Positions 6,204-55,961 of a stretch of 64,000 bases of DNA are shown piece by piece. The stretch is from positions 811,564-875,563 of the forward strand of contig NZ_CP085324.1 in NCBI RefSeq assembly GCF_020614395.1, in the 5' to 3' direction. The DNA comes from Salarchaeum japonicum. GTDB lineage: Archaea; Halobacteriota; Halobacteria; Halobacteriales; Halobacteriaceae. A model generated the notes under the pieces. That model made no database searches. It had not been told where the DNA came from and was given only the letters and a program-made list of their open reading frames with translations. How positions within the stretch are numbered: the first letter of the stretch is position 1; every line of letters begins with the position of its first letter. Position numbers and translations under genes: made by a program.

Positions 6204-7016
6204 ATGCCGACCGTTCAGGACATCCGTCGGAAGGCGGGCGACGAGCCGATAACCATGCTCACGGCGTACGACGCGCCCACCGCGGCCGCCGTCGAAGCCG
6301 CGGGTCTCGACATGGTGCTCGTCGGGGACAGCATGGGGAACGCCGTGATGGGCTACGACTCCACGCTCCCCGTGACGATGGACGACGTGGTCAGTCGAAC
6401 CGGCGCGGTCGCGCGCGCGACCGAGGACACGCTCGTCGTCGCCGACATGCCATTCCTCAGTTTCGGCGCGAGCGAGGAGGCGAGCGTCGAGAACGCCGGC
6501 CGCCTCCTCAAGGACGCGGGCGCGCAGGCCGTGAAACTCGAATGCGGAGAGCACACCGTCGAACTGACCGACACCCTCACCTCGCTCGGCATCCCCGTGA
6601 TGGCTCACCTCGGCCTCACCCCCCAGCACGTCAACCAACTCGGCGGCTACACCCGCCAGGGAACCACCGAGGACACCGCGAGCGAAATCCTCCGCCTCGC
6701 CGAAGCCCACGCGGACGCCGGCGCGTTCAGCCTCGTCCTCGAACACGTCCCCGCGAACGTCGCCGCCCAAATCACCGACGCCATCGACATCCCCACCATC
6801 GGCATCGGTGCCGGCCCCGACACCGACGGCCAGGTGCTCGTCGTCACCGACGTGCTCGGGATGACCGACTGGAGTCCGCCCTTCGCCAAACAGTACGGCG
6901 ACCTCAAGGCGGAGATGGAGTCCGCCATCGCCGAGTACAAGCAGGACGTCGAGAACGGCGACTTCCCCGCGAGCGAACACAGCCACACCGCAGACGACCT
7001 CGACGACCTCTACTAA
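6204..7016 (+). CDS. panB: 3-methyl-2-oxobutanoate hydroxymethyltransferase
   Basis: Ketopantoate hydroxymethyltransferase, the first step of pantoate/CoA synthesis (ketoisovalerate plus methylene-tetrahydropterin). It is a 270-residue TIM barrel, the usual family length. Metal and substrate motifs are visible: MLTAYDAPTA, VLVGDSMGN, VVADMPFLSF, VKLECGE and MAHLGLTPQ. Its stop codon runs directly into a CCCAC-hairpin element (7017-7125). A pantoate kinase or phosphopantothenate synthetase is not in the window. Confidence 0.95.
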   Translation: MPTVQDIRRKAGDEPITMLTAYDAPTAAAVEAAGLDMVLVGDSMGNAVMGYDSTLPVTMDDVVSRTGAVARATEDTLVVADMPFLSFGASEEASVENAGRLLKDAGAQAVKLECGEHTVELTDTLTSLGIPVMAHLGLTPQHVNQLGGYTRQGTTEDTASEILRLAEAHADAGAFSLVLEHVPANVAAQITDAIDIPTIGIGAGPDTDGQVLVVTDVLGMTDWSPPFAKQYGDLKAEMESAIAEYKQDVENGDFPASEHSHTADDLDDLY

Positions 7017-7125
7017 CCCACCTTTTTACTGTGAGGGGTCGCTCCGCGACCCCTCCAGTAAAAACCTGGAGGGAAAAGGCCGGTCGCCTCCGGCGACCGG
7101 TGAACGGCGCATCGGAGATGCGCCG
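7017..7125 (+). repeat. Three-hairpin 3' element A after panB
   Basis: It begins CCCAC immediately after the panB TAA. Hairpin 1 (7023-7064): TTTTTACTG pairs with CAGTAAAAA and GAGGGGTCGC with GCGACCCCTC, about 19 bp in all with one bulged T. The linker CCTGGAGGGAAAA is at 7065-7077. Hairpin 2 (7080-7100) is CCGGTCGCC-TCC-GGCGACCGG. TGAA follows, then hairpin 3 (7105-7125), CGGCGCATC-GGA-GATGCGCCG. The same architecture with different stems occurs at 35799-35908. From 7126 to about 7325 I see no gene; the cdc48 operon promoter follows. Confidence 0.8.
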
Positions 7126-11116: not shown

Positions 11117-11566
11117 ATGACTCGGGTCTGCCTCGTCGAGGACGACGACTCAAGCCTCCCACTCGACCTCTACGGCTACGACACCGCCCGCCGCGCGCTC
11201 GCCACCTACGACCTCACCGAACCCTGGGACAACACCGTCGTCCTCGACACCGTCAGCCTCGGCGCGGCCGTCAGCCTCCTCAACGACCTCAACTGGTACC
11301 TCGCCCGCCTCACCAGCGACGCCTTCGTCCAAGACCCCAGCGTCAGCCGCCACGAGTGGCTCTCCCGCCCCCTCGCCCGCGAAATCCGGGACGGAAACGT
11401 CTCCCCCGACGACCCGATCAACCGCCTCAAGGTCTACGGCGTCGAAAACGGCCGCCTCGTCGACCCGACCAACGTCCTCCGCGGCAGCGGTGGCGACGGC
11501 GACTACGAACGAAGCGAATACGACGACACCGTCGTCGTCAGAGTCACCCAAGACGAGTTCTTCTGA
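11117..11566 (+). CDS. DUF5804 family protein
   Basis: 149 residues. Conserved-looking blocks TRVCLVEDDD, ATYDLTEPWDNT, DTVSLGAAVSLLNDLNWYLARL and HEWLSRPLA match the haloarchaeal DUF5804 family, whose function is unknown. There is no signal peptide or membrane helix; the C-terminus is acidic. The start is one base after the thiI stop, so co-expression with tRNA thiolation is likely, but I see no catalytic motif. The stop codon is followed at once by a degenerate CCCAC-hairpin element. Confidence 0.75.
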   Translation: MTRVCLVEDDDSSLPLDLYGYDTARRALATYDLTEPWDNTVVLDTVSLGAAVSLLNDLNWYLARLTSDAFVQDPSVSRHEWLSRPLAREIRDGNVSPDDPINRLKVYGVENGRLVDPTNVLRGSGGDGDYERSEYDDTVVVRVTQDEFF

Positions 11567-11871
11567 CCCACCGTTTACGCTGCGCGCCGGCGATACCGGC
11601 GCGCTCGGAAAAAGCTGGACGAAACGCCGTCGTTACCCTCTTCGCGGGTTCCTCGGCCCGCGCTTCGCGCGGCGAATCTCTGCGCTCGGGCTCTTCGAGC
11701 CGTTACCAGAAACGCGATGCGTTTCTGGTTAGCGAACGAGACGCAACGCGTCTCGTCAACGCTCGCTTGAGAACGCTCCGACCGTGTCTGCTTGGGTTTC
11801 TGTGAGCGTTCGGATTTTACCGACGGAAATCGACGGCTTCTGGCTGCATAGCGAGACGCAACGCGTCTCGC
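11567..11871 (+). repeat. Hairpin cluster after DUF5804, including a degenerate 3' element
   Basis: It starts CCCAC after the stop, then GCGCGCCGG-CGATA-CCGGCGCGC (11582-11604), then GGAAAAAGCTGGACGAAA, a diverged form of the GGAAAAACCTGGAGGGAAA linker. Downstream are ACCAGAAACGC-GAT-GCGTTTCTGGT (11705-11729), ACGAGACGC-AAC-GCGTCTCGT (11736-11756) and GCGAGACGC-AAC-GCGTCTCGC (11851-11871). The last two share the hairpin core GAGACGCAACGCGTCTC. No credible gene is present from 11567 to 12108; from about 11890 the base composition becomes AT-richer. Confidence 0.6.
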
Positions 11872-33968: not shown

Positions 33969-35798
33969 ATGTACGAACACGACGTACTCGTAGTCGGTGC
34001 AGGCGGTGCCGGCCTCCGTGCGGCCATCGCGGCGCACGAGGAAGGCGCGGACGTGGCGCTCGTCACGAAACTCCACCCGGTTCGCTCCCACACGGGCGCG
34101 GCCGAGGGCGGTATCAACGCCGCGCTGCGGAACGGCGACTCGTGGCAAGACCACGCGTACGACACGATGAAGGGGTCGGACTACCTCGGTGACGCCCCCG
34201 CCGTCGAAACGCTCGCGCAGGACGCCCCTGAGAACGTCATCCAGCTCGAAAACTGGGGGATGCCGTTCAGTCGCGAGGACGACGGCCGCGTCAGCCAGCG
34301 GCCGTTCGGCGGTCTCTCCTTCCCCCGCACCACGTACGCGGGCGCGGAGACCGGCCACCACCTCCTCCACACGCTCTACGAACAGGTCGTCAAGCGCGGC
34401 ATCGAGGTGTACGACGAGTGGTACGTCACGAACCTCGCCGTCACGGACGAGGACGACCCGAACGAACGCAGCTGTCACGGCATCGTCGGCTACGACGTGC
34501 AGACCGGCGAACTCGCGGGCTTCCGCGCGAACGACGGCGTCATCCTCGCGACCGGCGGGATGGGGCAGGTGTTCGACCACACCACGAACGCGGTCGCGAA
34601 CACCGGAGACGGCGTCGCGATGGCGTACCGCGCGGGCGTCCCGATGGAGGACATGGAGTTCATCCAGTTCCACCCGACGACGCTCCCCTCGACGGGCGTC
34701 CTCATCAGCGAGGGCGTGCGCGGCGAGGGCGGCATCCTCTACAACACGGAGGGCGAACGCTTCATGTTCGAGTACGGGTACGCGACCAACGACGGCGAAC
34801 TCGCCAGCCGCGACGTGGTCGCGCGCGCCGAACTCACGGAAGTGAACGAAGGCCGCGGGTTCGAGGACGAGTACGTGATGCTCGACATGCGTCACCTCGG
34901 CGAGGAACGCATCCTCGACCGCCTGGAGAACATCCTCCACCTCGCGGAGGACTTCGAGGGCGTCGACGGCCTCGAAGAACCGATGCCCGTCAAGCCCGGC
35001 CACCACTACGCGATGGGTGGTATCGAGACGGACGAACACGGCCAGACGTGCATCGACGGCCTCTATGCCGTCGGCGAGTGCGCGTGCGTGAGCGTGCACG
35101 GCGGGAACCGCCTCGGCGGGAACGCCCTCCCCGAACTCATCGTGTTCGGGAAGCGCGCCGGCTCGCACGCCGCCGGCCGCGACCTCGGCGAACCCAAAAT
35201 CGAGACCGGGAAACCCGCGAACCCCGAACTCGAAGACCTCGACACCACCGCCTCCCTCGGCACCGTCGGCGACGACGAAGCCGCCGCGGACGGCGGACTC
35301 GCCGCGGAAGACCCCGAAACCGTCGTGGACGCCGCCGTCGAACGCGAGGACGAGCGCATCACGCGCCTCCTGGAGAAGGACGAAGGCACCCAGCACGCCG
35401 AAATCCGCTCCGACATCCAGAAGACGATGACCGCGAACGTCAACGTCTTCCGGGAGGAGGACGCGCTCGAAGAGACGCTCCACGACATCCGGGACGCCCG
35501 GGAACGCTACGAGGACGTGTACGTCGCCGACAAATCCCGGACGTTCAACACCGACCTCCAGCACACCCTCGAAACCCGGAACATCCTCGACATCGCCGAA
35601 GCCCTCACCATGGGCGCGCTCGCCCGCGACGAGTTCCGCGGCGCACACTGGCGCAAGGAACACCAGGAGCGCAAGGACGACGAGTGGCTCAAACACACCA
35701 TGGTCTCCTGGAACGACGGCCAGCCCGAACTCTGGTACCGCCCCGTCATCCTCGACGGCGAAAACAAGACCTACGAACCCAAAGAACGGTCTTACTAA
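33969..35798 (+). CDS. sdhA: Succinate dehydrogenase flavoprotein subunit
   Basis: 609 residues. FAD-binding GAGGAG is at 10-15, and VRSHTGAAEGG includes His43, the covalent FAD site. MEFIQFHPTTLP and GEGGILYN are substrate and catalytic regions, and HGGNRLGGNALPE is the second FAD contact near 378. Last gene of sdhCDBA, three bases after sdhB. The stop is followed immediately by the three-hairpin element B, which may terminate or stabilise the operon transcript. Confidence 0.97.
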   Translation: MYEHDVLVVGAGGAGLRAAIAAHEEGADVALVTKLHPVRSHTGAAEGGINAALRNGDSWQDHAYDTMKGSDYLGDAPAVETLAQDAPENVIQLENWGMPFSREDDGRVSQRPFGGLSFPRTTYAGAETGHHLLHTLYEQVVKRGIEVYDEWYVTNLAVTDEDDPNERSCHGIVGYDVQTGELAGFRANDGVILATGGMGQVFDHTTNAVANTGDGVAMAYRAGVPMEDMEFIQFHPTTLPSTGVLISEGVRGEGGILYNTEGERFMFEYGYATNDGELASRDVVARAELTEVNEGRGFEDEYVMLDMRHLGEERILDRLENILHLAEDFEGVDGLEEPMPVKPGHHYAMGGIETDEHGQTCIDGLYAVGECACVSVHGGNRLGGNALPELIVFGKRAGSHAAGRDLGEPKIETGKPANPELEDLDTTASLGTVGDDEAAADGGLAAEDPETVVDAAVEREDERITRLLEKDEGTQHAEIRSDIQKTMTANVNVFREEDALEETLHDIRDARERYEDVYVADKSRTFNTDLQHTLETRNILDIAEALTMGALARDEFRGAHWRKEHQERKDDEWLKHTMVSWNDGQPELWYRPVILDGENKTYEPKERSY

Positions 35799-35908
35799 CC
35801 CACTTTTTCTCGTGAGGGGGTCGCTTCGCGACCCCCTCCGGAAAAACCTGGAGGGAAAAATGCTCGCTCGCTCCGCGAGCGAGTGAATCGCGGCGCGACG
35901 CGCCGCGA
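35799..35908 (+). repeat. Three-hairpin 3' element B after sdhA
   Basis: CCCAC follows the sdhA TAA. Hairpin 1 (35804-35846) is closed by TTTTT/AAAAA with GAGGGGGTCGC-TTC-GCGACCCCCTC. The linker CCTGGAGGGAAAAA is at 35847-35860. Hairpin 2 (35862-35884) is GCTCGCTCGC-TCC-GCGAGCGAGT with one G-T end pair. TGAA follows, then hairpin 3 (35888-35908), TCGCGGCGC-GAC-GCGCCGCGA. The layout matches element A base for base in the linkers while the stems differ. The rest of the gap to 36056 contains no gene I can support. Confidence 0.8.
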
Positions 35909-54674: not shown

Positions 54675-55427
54675 TTACGCCCAGGCGGGTTTCGTGACGG
54701 TCACGTCCCCGCGCTCGAACGTGAACTGCTTCGAGACGGTCGCGGGTTCGCCATCGATGGTGGTCGTGTAGCTCACGGAGATGTCGGTGACGAAGCCGTT
54801 CGGCGTGACGGTCGCACTCAGAGTTTCCGTGGCGGCCTCGCCGTACTCGGTGCTGACGTTGACGGCGTCGGTCGCGCGGAGCTCGACGTTCCCGTCGTCG
54901 GTCTCGGAGACCTCTAGCTGGCCGGCCGCGAGGAGCGTGTAGAGGTACTCGCTCCACTGGTCGGGCGTGCGGACGAGGTCGGTGTCACCCGGGCCGCCGA
55001 CGGTCGCGGTGGTGGTGTTGCCGTCGTCGTGCGTGTACTGGACGGTGCCGGTGGTGGCGTTCGACCAGAACGCGACGCTACTGTAGTCGTTGCCGGGCGG
55101 GGTGGCGCTGTAGCCCCGGGACGCGGATAGCGTGTCGCCGCTGGCCTTCGTGGTCTGCATGTAGGCCTCGTAGCCCGAGCCGTTGACGCGGACGGACGTG
55201 ATTTCGGTAACCTCGTAGTCGGACGTCCGGAGCGCCTCGGCGTGCGCGTCCGTGAGGTCGAACCCGCTCTCGACGCCGGCAGCGGTGACGCCCGGCGGGT
55301 AATCGACGGACGCCTGGGTCGTGGTGGTGTTCGTGGTCGGTGCGGTCGTGCTCCCGCCGGTGCCGCCGCAGCCCGCGAGTGCGAGCATGGCTGCGAGCGC
55401 TACCGCGAGGAGGGCAGTCCTTCGCAT
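54675..55427 (-). CDS. Haloarchaeal lipoprotein (DUF7537-like family)
   Basis: 250 residues. Signal peptide with lipobox LAGC (Cys near 19), Thr-rich linker, then YPPGVTAAGVESGFDLTDAH and a C-terminal ending in VTKPAWA. These head and tail motifs match the proteins at 1840-2697 and 13501-14283. Probably membrane-anchored and surface exposed; function unknown. The ATG at 55427 gives a compact signal peptide. The promoter has a TATA-like CTTACTTATCC and an overlapping inverted repeat. Confidence 0.8.
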   Translation of the reverse strand: MRRTALLAVALAAMLALAGCGGTGGSTTAPTTNTTTTQASVDYPPGVTAAGVESGFDLTDAHAEALRTSDYEVTEITSVRVNGSGYEAYMQTTKASGDTLSASRGYSATPPGNDYSSVAFWSNATTGTVQYTHDDGNTTTATVGGPGDTDLVRTPDQWSEYLYTLLAAGQLEVSETDDGNVELRATDAVNVSTEYGEAATETLSATVTPNGFVTDISVSYTTTIDGEPATVSKQFTFERGDVTVTKPAWA

Positions 55428-55456
55428 GCTTTCGAATCGAAGCACCCCTCGGATAA

Positions 55457-55548: not shown

Positions 55549-55683
55549 TATCCGCGCCGGAACCCGACGAGGAAACCGCCCGTGAAGCCCCACTTTTTCC
55601 GGGCGCTGGCACGCGCCCGGAAAACCTGGAGGAAAAACCGTTATCCGCGCCGGAATCCGACGAGGAAACCGCCCGTGAAGCCC
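55549..55683. repeat. 3' element C flanked by 42-bp direct repeats of the FUN14 gene end
   Basis: The last 42 bp of the FUN14 coding region (55642-55683) are repeated at 55549-55590 with one mismatch. Between them is a 51-bp insert (55591-55641). It contains TTTTCCGGGCGC-TGGCAC-GCGCCCGGAAAA and the linker CCTGGAGGAAAAA, with CCCAC at the left junction. These are the conserved parts of elements A and B. Here the element is inverted relative to the gene. The outer copy also ends in a stop codon (TAG). Confidence 0.8.
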
Positions 55684-55961
55684 GCGGAGATGGAGAGCGT
55701 GGAGAGGATGGTGTTAATCCACTCGGGCGGGGTGCCGTTCTGTGCGGCCTCGCTGGCCTGCACCGCGCCGGCAGTGAGGCGTTCCCAGTCCACGGTGAGG
55801 ATGCCGCGGGATTCGAGGAACTTGAACAGCGCGAGCTCGATGCCGACGAGGACGGCGATGAGTTTCGCGACTTTCTTCGCCGCGAACCCGATGATGCCGC
55901 CGATGACCGCGCCGCTCCCGAACTCGATGCCGAGGGAGGTCGGGTCGATGTTGACTGCCAT
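55641..55961 (-). CDS. FUN14 family membrane protein
   Basis: 106 residues with three hydrophobic glycine-rich segments: LGIEFGSGAVIGGIIGFAAK, LIAVLVGIELALFKFLESRG and SISAGFTGGFLVGFRRG at the C-terminus. This is the FUN14/FUNDC1-like layout found across archaea; function is unknown outside mitochondria. A TATA-like CCTTAAAAG is about 25-28 bp before the ATG, back to back with the hflX promoter. The stop codon TAA is at the edge of an inserted element, and the final 13 codons are duplicated downstream. Confidence 0.85.
   Translation of the reverse strand: MAVNIDPTSLGIEFGSGAVIGGIIGFAAKKVAKLIAVLVGIELALFKFLESRGILTVDWERLTAGAVQASEAAQNGTPPEWINTILSTLSISAGFTGGFLVGFRRG

Follow-up and report, generated by a model that had tools for sequence, protein, structure and literature searches.

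The sequences that directly follow panB and sdhA in a 64,000-nt stretch of the Salarchaeum japonicum genome (NZ_CP085324.1, 811,564-875,563, hereafter the window; the whole genome is 2.34 Mb) belong to a family of structured repeated DNA elements which, going by Rfam and the open-access literature and as far as we could find, had previously gone unrecognised. Judging from the sequence and position of its copies, we lean towards seeing in this family a haloarchaea-wide bidirectional U-tract transcription terminator or mRNA 3′-end element. A whole archaeal class, with Haloferax (which carries one subtype) among its model genera, appears to use a recognisable structure at many of its gene ends. 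Through the family, transcription termination and 3′ UTR biology in haloarchaea become open to direct tests; it also supplies a candidate bidirectional terminator for genetic tools and is a natural system for gene conversion and gene-end duplication in archaea.

Results

Anatomy of the elements in the window

Past the TAA of panB and of sdhA one reads CCCAC(C), a T5 run, hairpin 1 with a bulged T, an A5 run, CCTGGAGGGAAAA, hairpin 2, TGAA and hairpin 3 (elements A, 7017-7125, and B, 35799-35908; Table 1), and the layout common to both is CNNACC-T5-[hairpin 1]-A5-YCTNNA..-A5-hairpin 2-TGAA-hairpin 3. This layout, the bulged T and the likeness of the linkers had been described in a sequence-only reading of the window, and direct reading as well as folding bears them out: against 200 dinucleotide shuffles, element A (-72.3 kcal/mol) has a z of -9.65 and element B (-69.5 kcal/mol) one of -6.99, with no shuffle folding as well. 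The T5/A5 pairs that were said to close hairpin 1 are present but form the outer part of the hairpin itself, and further out, across a CC/CC internal loop, lies a 3-bp helix, CCA:TGG. The three hairpins likewise hold for A and B but are not a fixed set, as hairpin 3, and sometimes hairpin 2, is optional among copies; the longer copies continue through hairpin 2, TGAA and hairpin 3 into a terminal ATGC-like sequence. Nor are A and B, both of them real, the only elements in the window, which holds two more members, a short form and a weak copy. Also in the window, a predicted 256-aa protein (54675-55445, minus strand) gave no Pfam match and has an N-terminus that looks lipoprotein-like by eye.

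Table 1. Elements and adjoining features in the window
Feature	Position	Strand	Evidence
panB (ketopantoate hydroxymethyltransferase), gene closed by element A	6204..7016	+	PF02548, E 1.5e-104
Element A core, CCCACC-TTTTT-hairpin 1-AAAAA-CCTGGAGGG-AAAA; first base after panB stop	7017..7077	+	covariance model 62.5 bits, E 7.3e-14 (member of the training set)
Element A hairpin 2, 10-bp stem, 3-nt loop	7079..7101	+	folding
Element A hairpin 3, 9-bp stem, 3-nt loop; 3′ of TGAA linker	7105..7125	+	folding
Weak fourth copy, directly 3′ of the TGA of a DUF5804 gene (11117-11566)	11567..11624	+	27.4 bits, E 7e-5; DUF5804 is PF19120
sdhA (succinate dehydrogenase flavoprotein), gene closed by element B	33969..35798	+	PF00890 and PF02910
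Element B core; first base after sdhA stop	35799..35859	+	covariance model 54.9 bits, E 6.3e-12
Element B hairpin 2	35862..35884	+	folding
Element B hairpin 3	35888..35908	+	folding
Direct repeat, second copy of the FUN14-family 3′ end, adjoining the CCCAC end of the third copy	55549..55588	.	40 bp, 98% identical to 55642-55681
Third copy, short form (core only), reversed relative to the gene before it	55589..55637	+	50.1 bits
FUN14-family gene, 3′ end duplicated across the third copy	55641..55961	-	PF04930, E 2.7e-19
Direct repeat, first copy, the FUN14-family gene's own 3′ end	55642..55681	.	repeat comparison

Fixed blocks and covarying helices

The 2.34-Mb genome contains the exact 13-nt linker 11 times, and not once when read backwards; ten of these occurrences sit in the CCCACC-T5-hairpin-A5-linker layout, and the remaining one (L008) is a chance match within a coding region. 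Alignment of the exact-linker copies with copies in other genomes gives two fixed single-stranded blocks that enclose variable stems. A covariance model built from both sets (R1) found about 40 sites in this genome, divergent ones included; our genome census relies on model searches.

In the divergent sites the last block varies in step with the first (CCA:TGG, GGA:TCC, GCA:TGC, GAA:TTC, GTA:TAC). Indeed, the NN:N′N′ bases of this basal NNA:TNN helix are complementary in 111 of 113 parsed sites (shuffles: mean 44, maximum 60), and in the outer helix of a 35-copy MAFFT alignment 98.9% of cells are paired, with 31 double changes where shuffles give 8.1, and pairing is worse in any shifted register; the divergent copies were found by a structural model, so some bias in these counts is possible, and orthologous sites are not independent. 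Counts of covarying cells also overstate the independent events, because a stem change is often the replacement of a whole cassette. The claim that paired stem changes betray a selected structure is supported, since the outer helix does covary, with the refinement that much of the change is whole-cassette replacement and not stepwise compensation. Within hairpin 1 a 4-bp helix is variable, with 129 of 148 pairs kept, and its neighbour is a TC/NCTC internal loop whose T, free in a search pattern that fixed part of the loop, is T in 37 of 37 partly pattern-selected sites. The parts of the family anatomy are an NNA:TNN base helix, an internal loop rich in C, the T5:A5 helix, which is invariant, the 4-bp helix, the TC/NCTC internal loop and a GC hairpin.

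The sequence of the T5:A5 helix hardly varies, while the helices beside the T runs change in pairs. In 76 distinct stop-adjacent sites, element positions 7-10 are T in 87-99%, next to an NN that is CC, GG, GC, GT or GA, and the T5 runs on the reverse strand are as fixed as those on the forward strand.

Other structural candidates were rejected. The ACX direct repeat between left loop and right trailer mainly reflects subtype linkage (41 of 53 parsable two-base cases identical, 39.5 in shuffles). In A and B the linker GGAGGG could pair with the 3′ arm of hairpin 1, which it cannot do in the subtypes with ACC or ACT trailers, and the loop sizes, judged by eye, do not suit a bulge-helix-bulge splicing motif. 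Two variants (L057 and L064, 1501-1543 in each) have no basal NNA:TNN helix and carry the linker GTTACATAAAAA / GTAACATAAAAA before hairpin 2; both still lie 1 nt past a stop codon.

Distribution

Further genomic copies had been predicted, together with a covariance model from linker-anchored copies as the means to find them, and such a search did yield the sites in this genome and many more in other haloarchaea. With a second model (R2, matches counted at E<=1e-6) the family is present in 194 of 242 haloarchaeal genomes (about 80%) and 66 of 74 genera, and in 24 of 26 genomes of the window's own family. In a phylum-wide sample of 148 genomes, 16 matched, all in the window's order, and none of the genomes from outside the haloarchaea did. 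The exact pattern of one subtype was found in Halobellus, Haloferax and Halospeciosus; in one genus (g3) 22 of the 28 sites are of the GT subtype, which is almost missing elsewhere. Among 2.9 million viral contigs the exact pattern had three matches for one subtype and none for another.

The layout had been thought to resemble no described haloarchaeal element, and our searches turned up none either. At the gathering score, Rfam 15 returns only tRNAs from the window, five element loci searched at E<=1 gave no relevant Rfam match, and no description of the element was found in the open-access papers that were searched.

Cassette exchange

Twelve sites could be matched by their genes between two species of the genus. 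Most keep hairpin 2 and the coding sequence nearly identical, and at most of the twelve, sdhA included, another cassette, its arms matching, occupies the core of hairpin 1. Two unlinked genes of this genome (L006 and L034) carry an identical hairpin 1; in the sister species, the orthologue of L034 carries a different one. This pattern looks like concerted evolution and would be best explained by conversion between dispersed copies. Gene conversion occurs in polyploid haloarchaea. Our best reading is that the element turns over by cassette exchange and duplication.

Placement at gene ends

With genes called by a codon-usage model made from the window (gene limits outside it are approximate), 83 of 164 sites begin at -3 to +6 nt relative to the stop codon of a same-strand gene. 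The commonest offset is 0 (28 sites), and in 22 of the 83 the stop codon overlaps the element, within the stem or at its base. At three of the 164 sites the element directly abuts the 3′ end of a tRNA gene, tRNA-Pro and tRNA-Leu among them. The placement relative to stop codons is thus as non-random as the sequence-only reading supposed for half of the sites, but there are also reverse-oriented copies after genes. The copies are neither lacking elsewhere, nor unpaired, nor scattered at random. Of 82 stop-adjacent sites only 2 have a co-directional gene within 80 nt past the element, whereas 30 of 63 ordinary gene ends in the window are followed that closely by one; element sites therefore look like operon ends.

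The genes that precede forward elements have their own peculiarities. Their last residue is Phe or Tyr in 27 of 80 cases (34%; L004, L005, L009 and L047 are examples), against 5% of other genes (p about 5e-11), TAA is commoner as their stop codon, and their last two codons are T-rich.

Duplicated gene ends at reverse-oriented copies

About 40 sites are reverse-oriented or repeat-flanked, and 33 of them have direct repeats of 20-97 bp, mostly made up of the 3′ end of the adjacent gene and as a rule including the stop codon. None of the 83 forward stop-adjacent sites has such repeats, and only 4 of 371 control gene ends do. Two repeat pairs are 100% identical (46 bp at L087, 55 bp at L126). Where repeat copies differ, the third codon position accounts for 41 differences, the first for 17 and the second for 6, a poor fit to simple neutral decay of the second copy; hence coding constraint persisted on one copy or both, or the copies differ in allelic origin. 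At the citrate synthase and asparaginase genes, some related genomes have the element with a duplicated 3′ end and others a single 3′ end and no element. In one genome (L077) a second, truncated element lies past the second repeat.

A tandem array at L063 (1501-1632; genome C1:66378-66509) reads repeat-element-repeat-element-repeat, with repeats of about 32 bp and identical 50-bp elements. At L091, L098 and L131 a sequence like a tRNA 3′ end stands right before the element and the full tRNA gene at another place in the same locus, as would be expected had the ends of tRNA genes also been duplicated.

Discussion

What leads us to the terminator reading is that T5 is fixed on each strand at gene and operon ends, together with published termination at T5C. 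In Haloferax, termination at such a stretch reaches 95%, and a T stretch accompanies the 3′ ends that lie between genes (PMC7237163). With such archaeal U-tract terminators, which depend on FttA/aCPSF1, the element shares a T5 directly past genes, intergenic location and operon ends; its T-rich tract lies at about +6 to +11 past the stop, at the end of the transcription unit. It differs from them in that its T5 runs sit, in both orientations, within a conserved, repeated and covarying composite structure. Polymerase arriving from the forward gene would terminate at U5, some 6-11 nt past the stop codon, and polymerase from the opposite side would meet hairpin 2 and then U5 and U5. The hairpin might afterwards stabilise or mark the 3′ end, gene conversion between dispersed copies would keep copies alike within a lineage, and strand switching at the base of the hairpin could yield the duplicated gene 3′ ends.

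Two points speak against a terminator: the median 3′ UTR of Haloferax, 97 nt (PMC7237163), exceeds that implied by a stop at +11, and on the forward strand U5 is 5′ of the hairpin, the opposite of the bacterial hairpin-then-U order. Moreover, a plain U-tract terminator needs neither conserved internal loops nor a basal helix, and the structure therefore probably does more than terminate. Termination alone leaves unexplained the internal loops, the exact stop-codon spacing, the Phe/Tyr enrichment and the orientation-specific gene-end duplications.

It is possible, though on the unlikely side, that the family is a selfish or domesticated haloarchaea-wide structured element, copied into gene ends by a mechanism free of Y1 transposase, with forward copies placed precisely at stop codons and the ends of tRNA genes, reverse copies duplicating the host gene's 3′ end, and hairpin-1 cassettes exchanged at fixed sites. 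We consider it unlikely that the family is primarily a non-autonomous mobile element of REP or MITE kind, inserting near gene ends with a long target duplication, its terminator effect being secondary and explaining only why insertions survive. The repeats at reverse or repeat-flanked sites and their rarity at control ends, the two identical pairs, the presence/absence polymorphism at citrate synthase and asparaginase and the tandem states at L063 and L077 all fit such an element. However, the Y1 (IS200/RAYT) transposase (PF01797) has no match in this genome, the same search matching control genomes that include Haloferax volcanii; the duplication is not short and constant but variable in length; forward sites never carry a duplication; and viral contigs hold almost no copies. 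We know of no transposase with a fixed stagger that gives such variable duplication length. As a hypothesis for the duplications we prefer strand switching or conversion at the base of the hairpin to the action of a transposase, given the missing Y1 transposase, the varying duplication length and the tandem intermediates.

In a different proposal the element would not be a terminator but a site, on RNA or single-stranded DNA, to which a dedicated haloarchaeal protein binds in order to control the decay, processing or translation of mRNA at the stop; the conserved internal loops (CC/YC; TC, NCTC) inside variable helices speak for it. On the reverse strand the loops GA/GG and GAGN/CGA could form sheared G-A pairs, the stop codon lies within the stem or at its base in 22 of the 83 stop-adjacent sites, and Escherichia coli offers a precedent, since its REPs within 15 nt of stop codons affect mRNA decay, processing or translation (cited in PMC12306157). 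This strikes us as somewhat more doubtful still, as copies also directly follow tRNA genes or lie a little upstream of promoters, where translation is irrelevant, the internal-loop sites are partly pattern-selected, and the partner protein is purely putative. Very improbable, finally, is that the paired changes arose with no structural selection, palindrome repair by template switching and conversion making the arms match. DNA-level processes do act here, as the block replacement of cores and the loop flips between orthologues (GGA to TCT, L003/L023) show; but blind correction would give perfect palindromes, whereas internal loops stay unpaired and conserved within this one, T5 is not exchanged for A5, and the architecture is kept across the 66 genera.

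Nor does the element coincide with a known class of repeat. Like REPs and BIMEs with RAYT it is a short palindromic extragenic repeat, some of those also lying within 15 nt of stop codons, but its stop placement is far stricter, it duplicates gene ends, and no GTAG or CGTC tag stands at the palindrome end in the aligned copies, whose ends are CNNACC and YCTNNA. As the genome has no Y1 transposase, the element is not a REP or PATE mobilised by RAYT/IS605. The PATEs and SMRs of Haloquadratum are, like it, haloarchaeal, transposase-free, about 50-110 bp long and made of palindromic or inverted repeats; PATEs are relatives of IS605 ends that do not duplicate their target, and SMRs are near-identical copies, of which the A type targets PATEs (PMC3119063). 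The stems of the present element diverge, it is placed at gene ends and its gene-end repeats are long; its 33 repeat-flanked sites do not agree with the PATE trait of no target duplication. Neither do repeats of 20-97 bp, mostly including a gene 3′ end, agree with the short constant target duplication of a classical MITE. Att sites of integrative elements at gene 3′ ends carry a direct duplication of the gene end, often with synonymous differences. The duplicated gene 3′ end and its often synonymous differences are common to both, but only about 50-150 bp separate the element's repeats and its target genes are unrelated in sequence. Integron attC sites, CRISPR-type repeat duplication, retrotransposition and diversity-generating retroelements were set aside by reasoning (variable repeat length, no adenine-specific change).

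Two observations concern the flanks of the element. Seven sites (L001, L003, L080, L113, L124, L138 and L140) lie next to an opposite-strand gene: their CNNACC end precedes its start codon by 39-41 nt, presumably at the outer edge of its promoter. In several genomes of one other family, seven sites (L232, L233, L235, L236 and L014-L016) have a near-identical GGATACCG(T/C)GGGG(G/T)CAGACTTCAAA to the left of the element; this sequence, in which no stop codon, tRNA or Rfam match was recognisable, is possibly an unannotated stable RNA.
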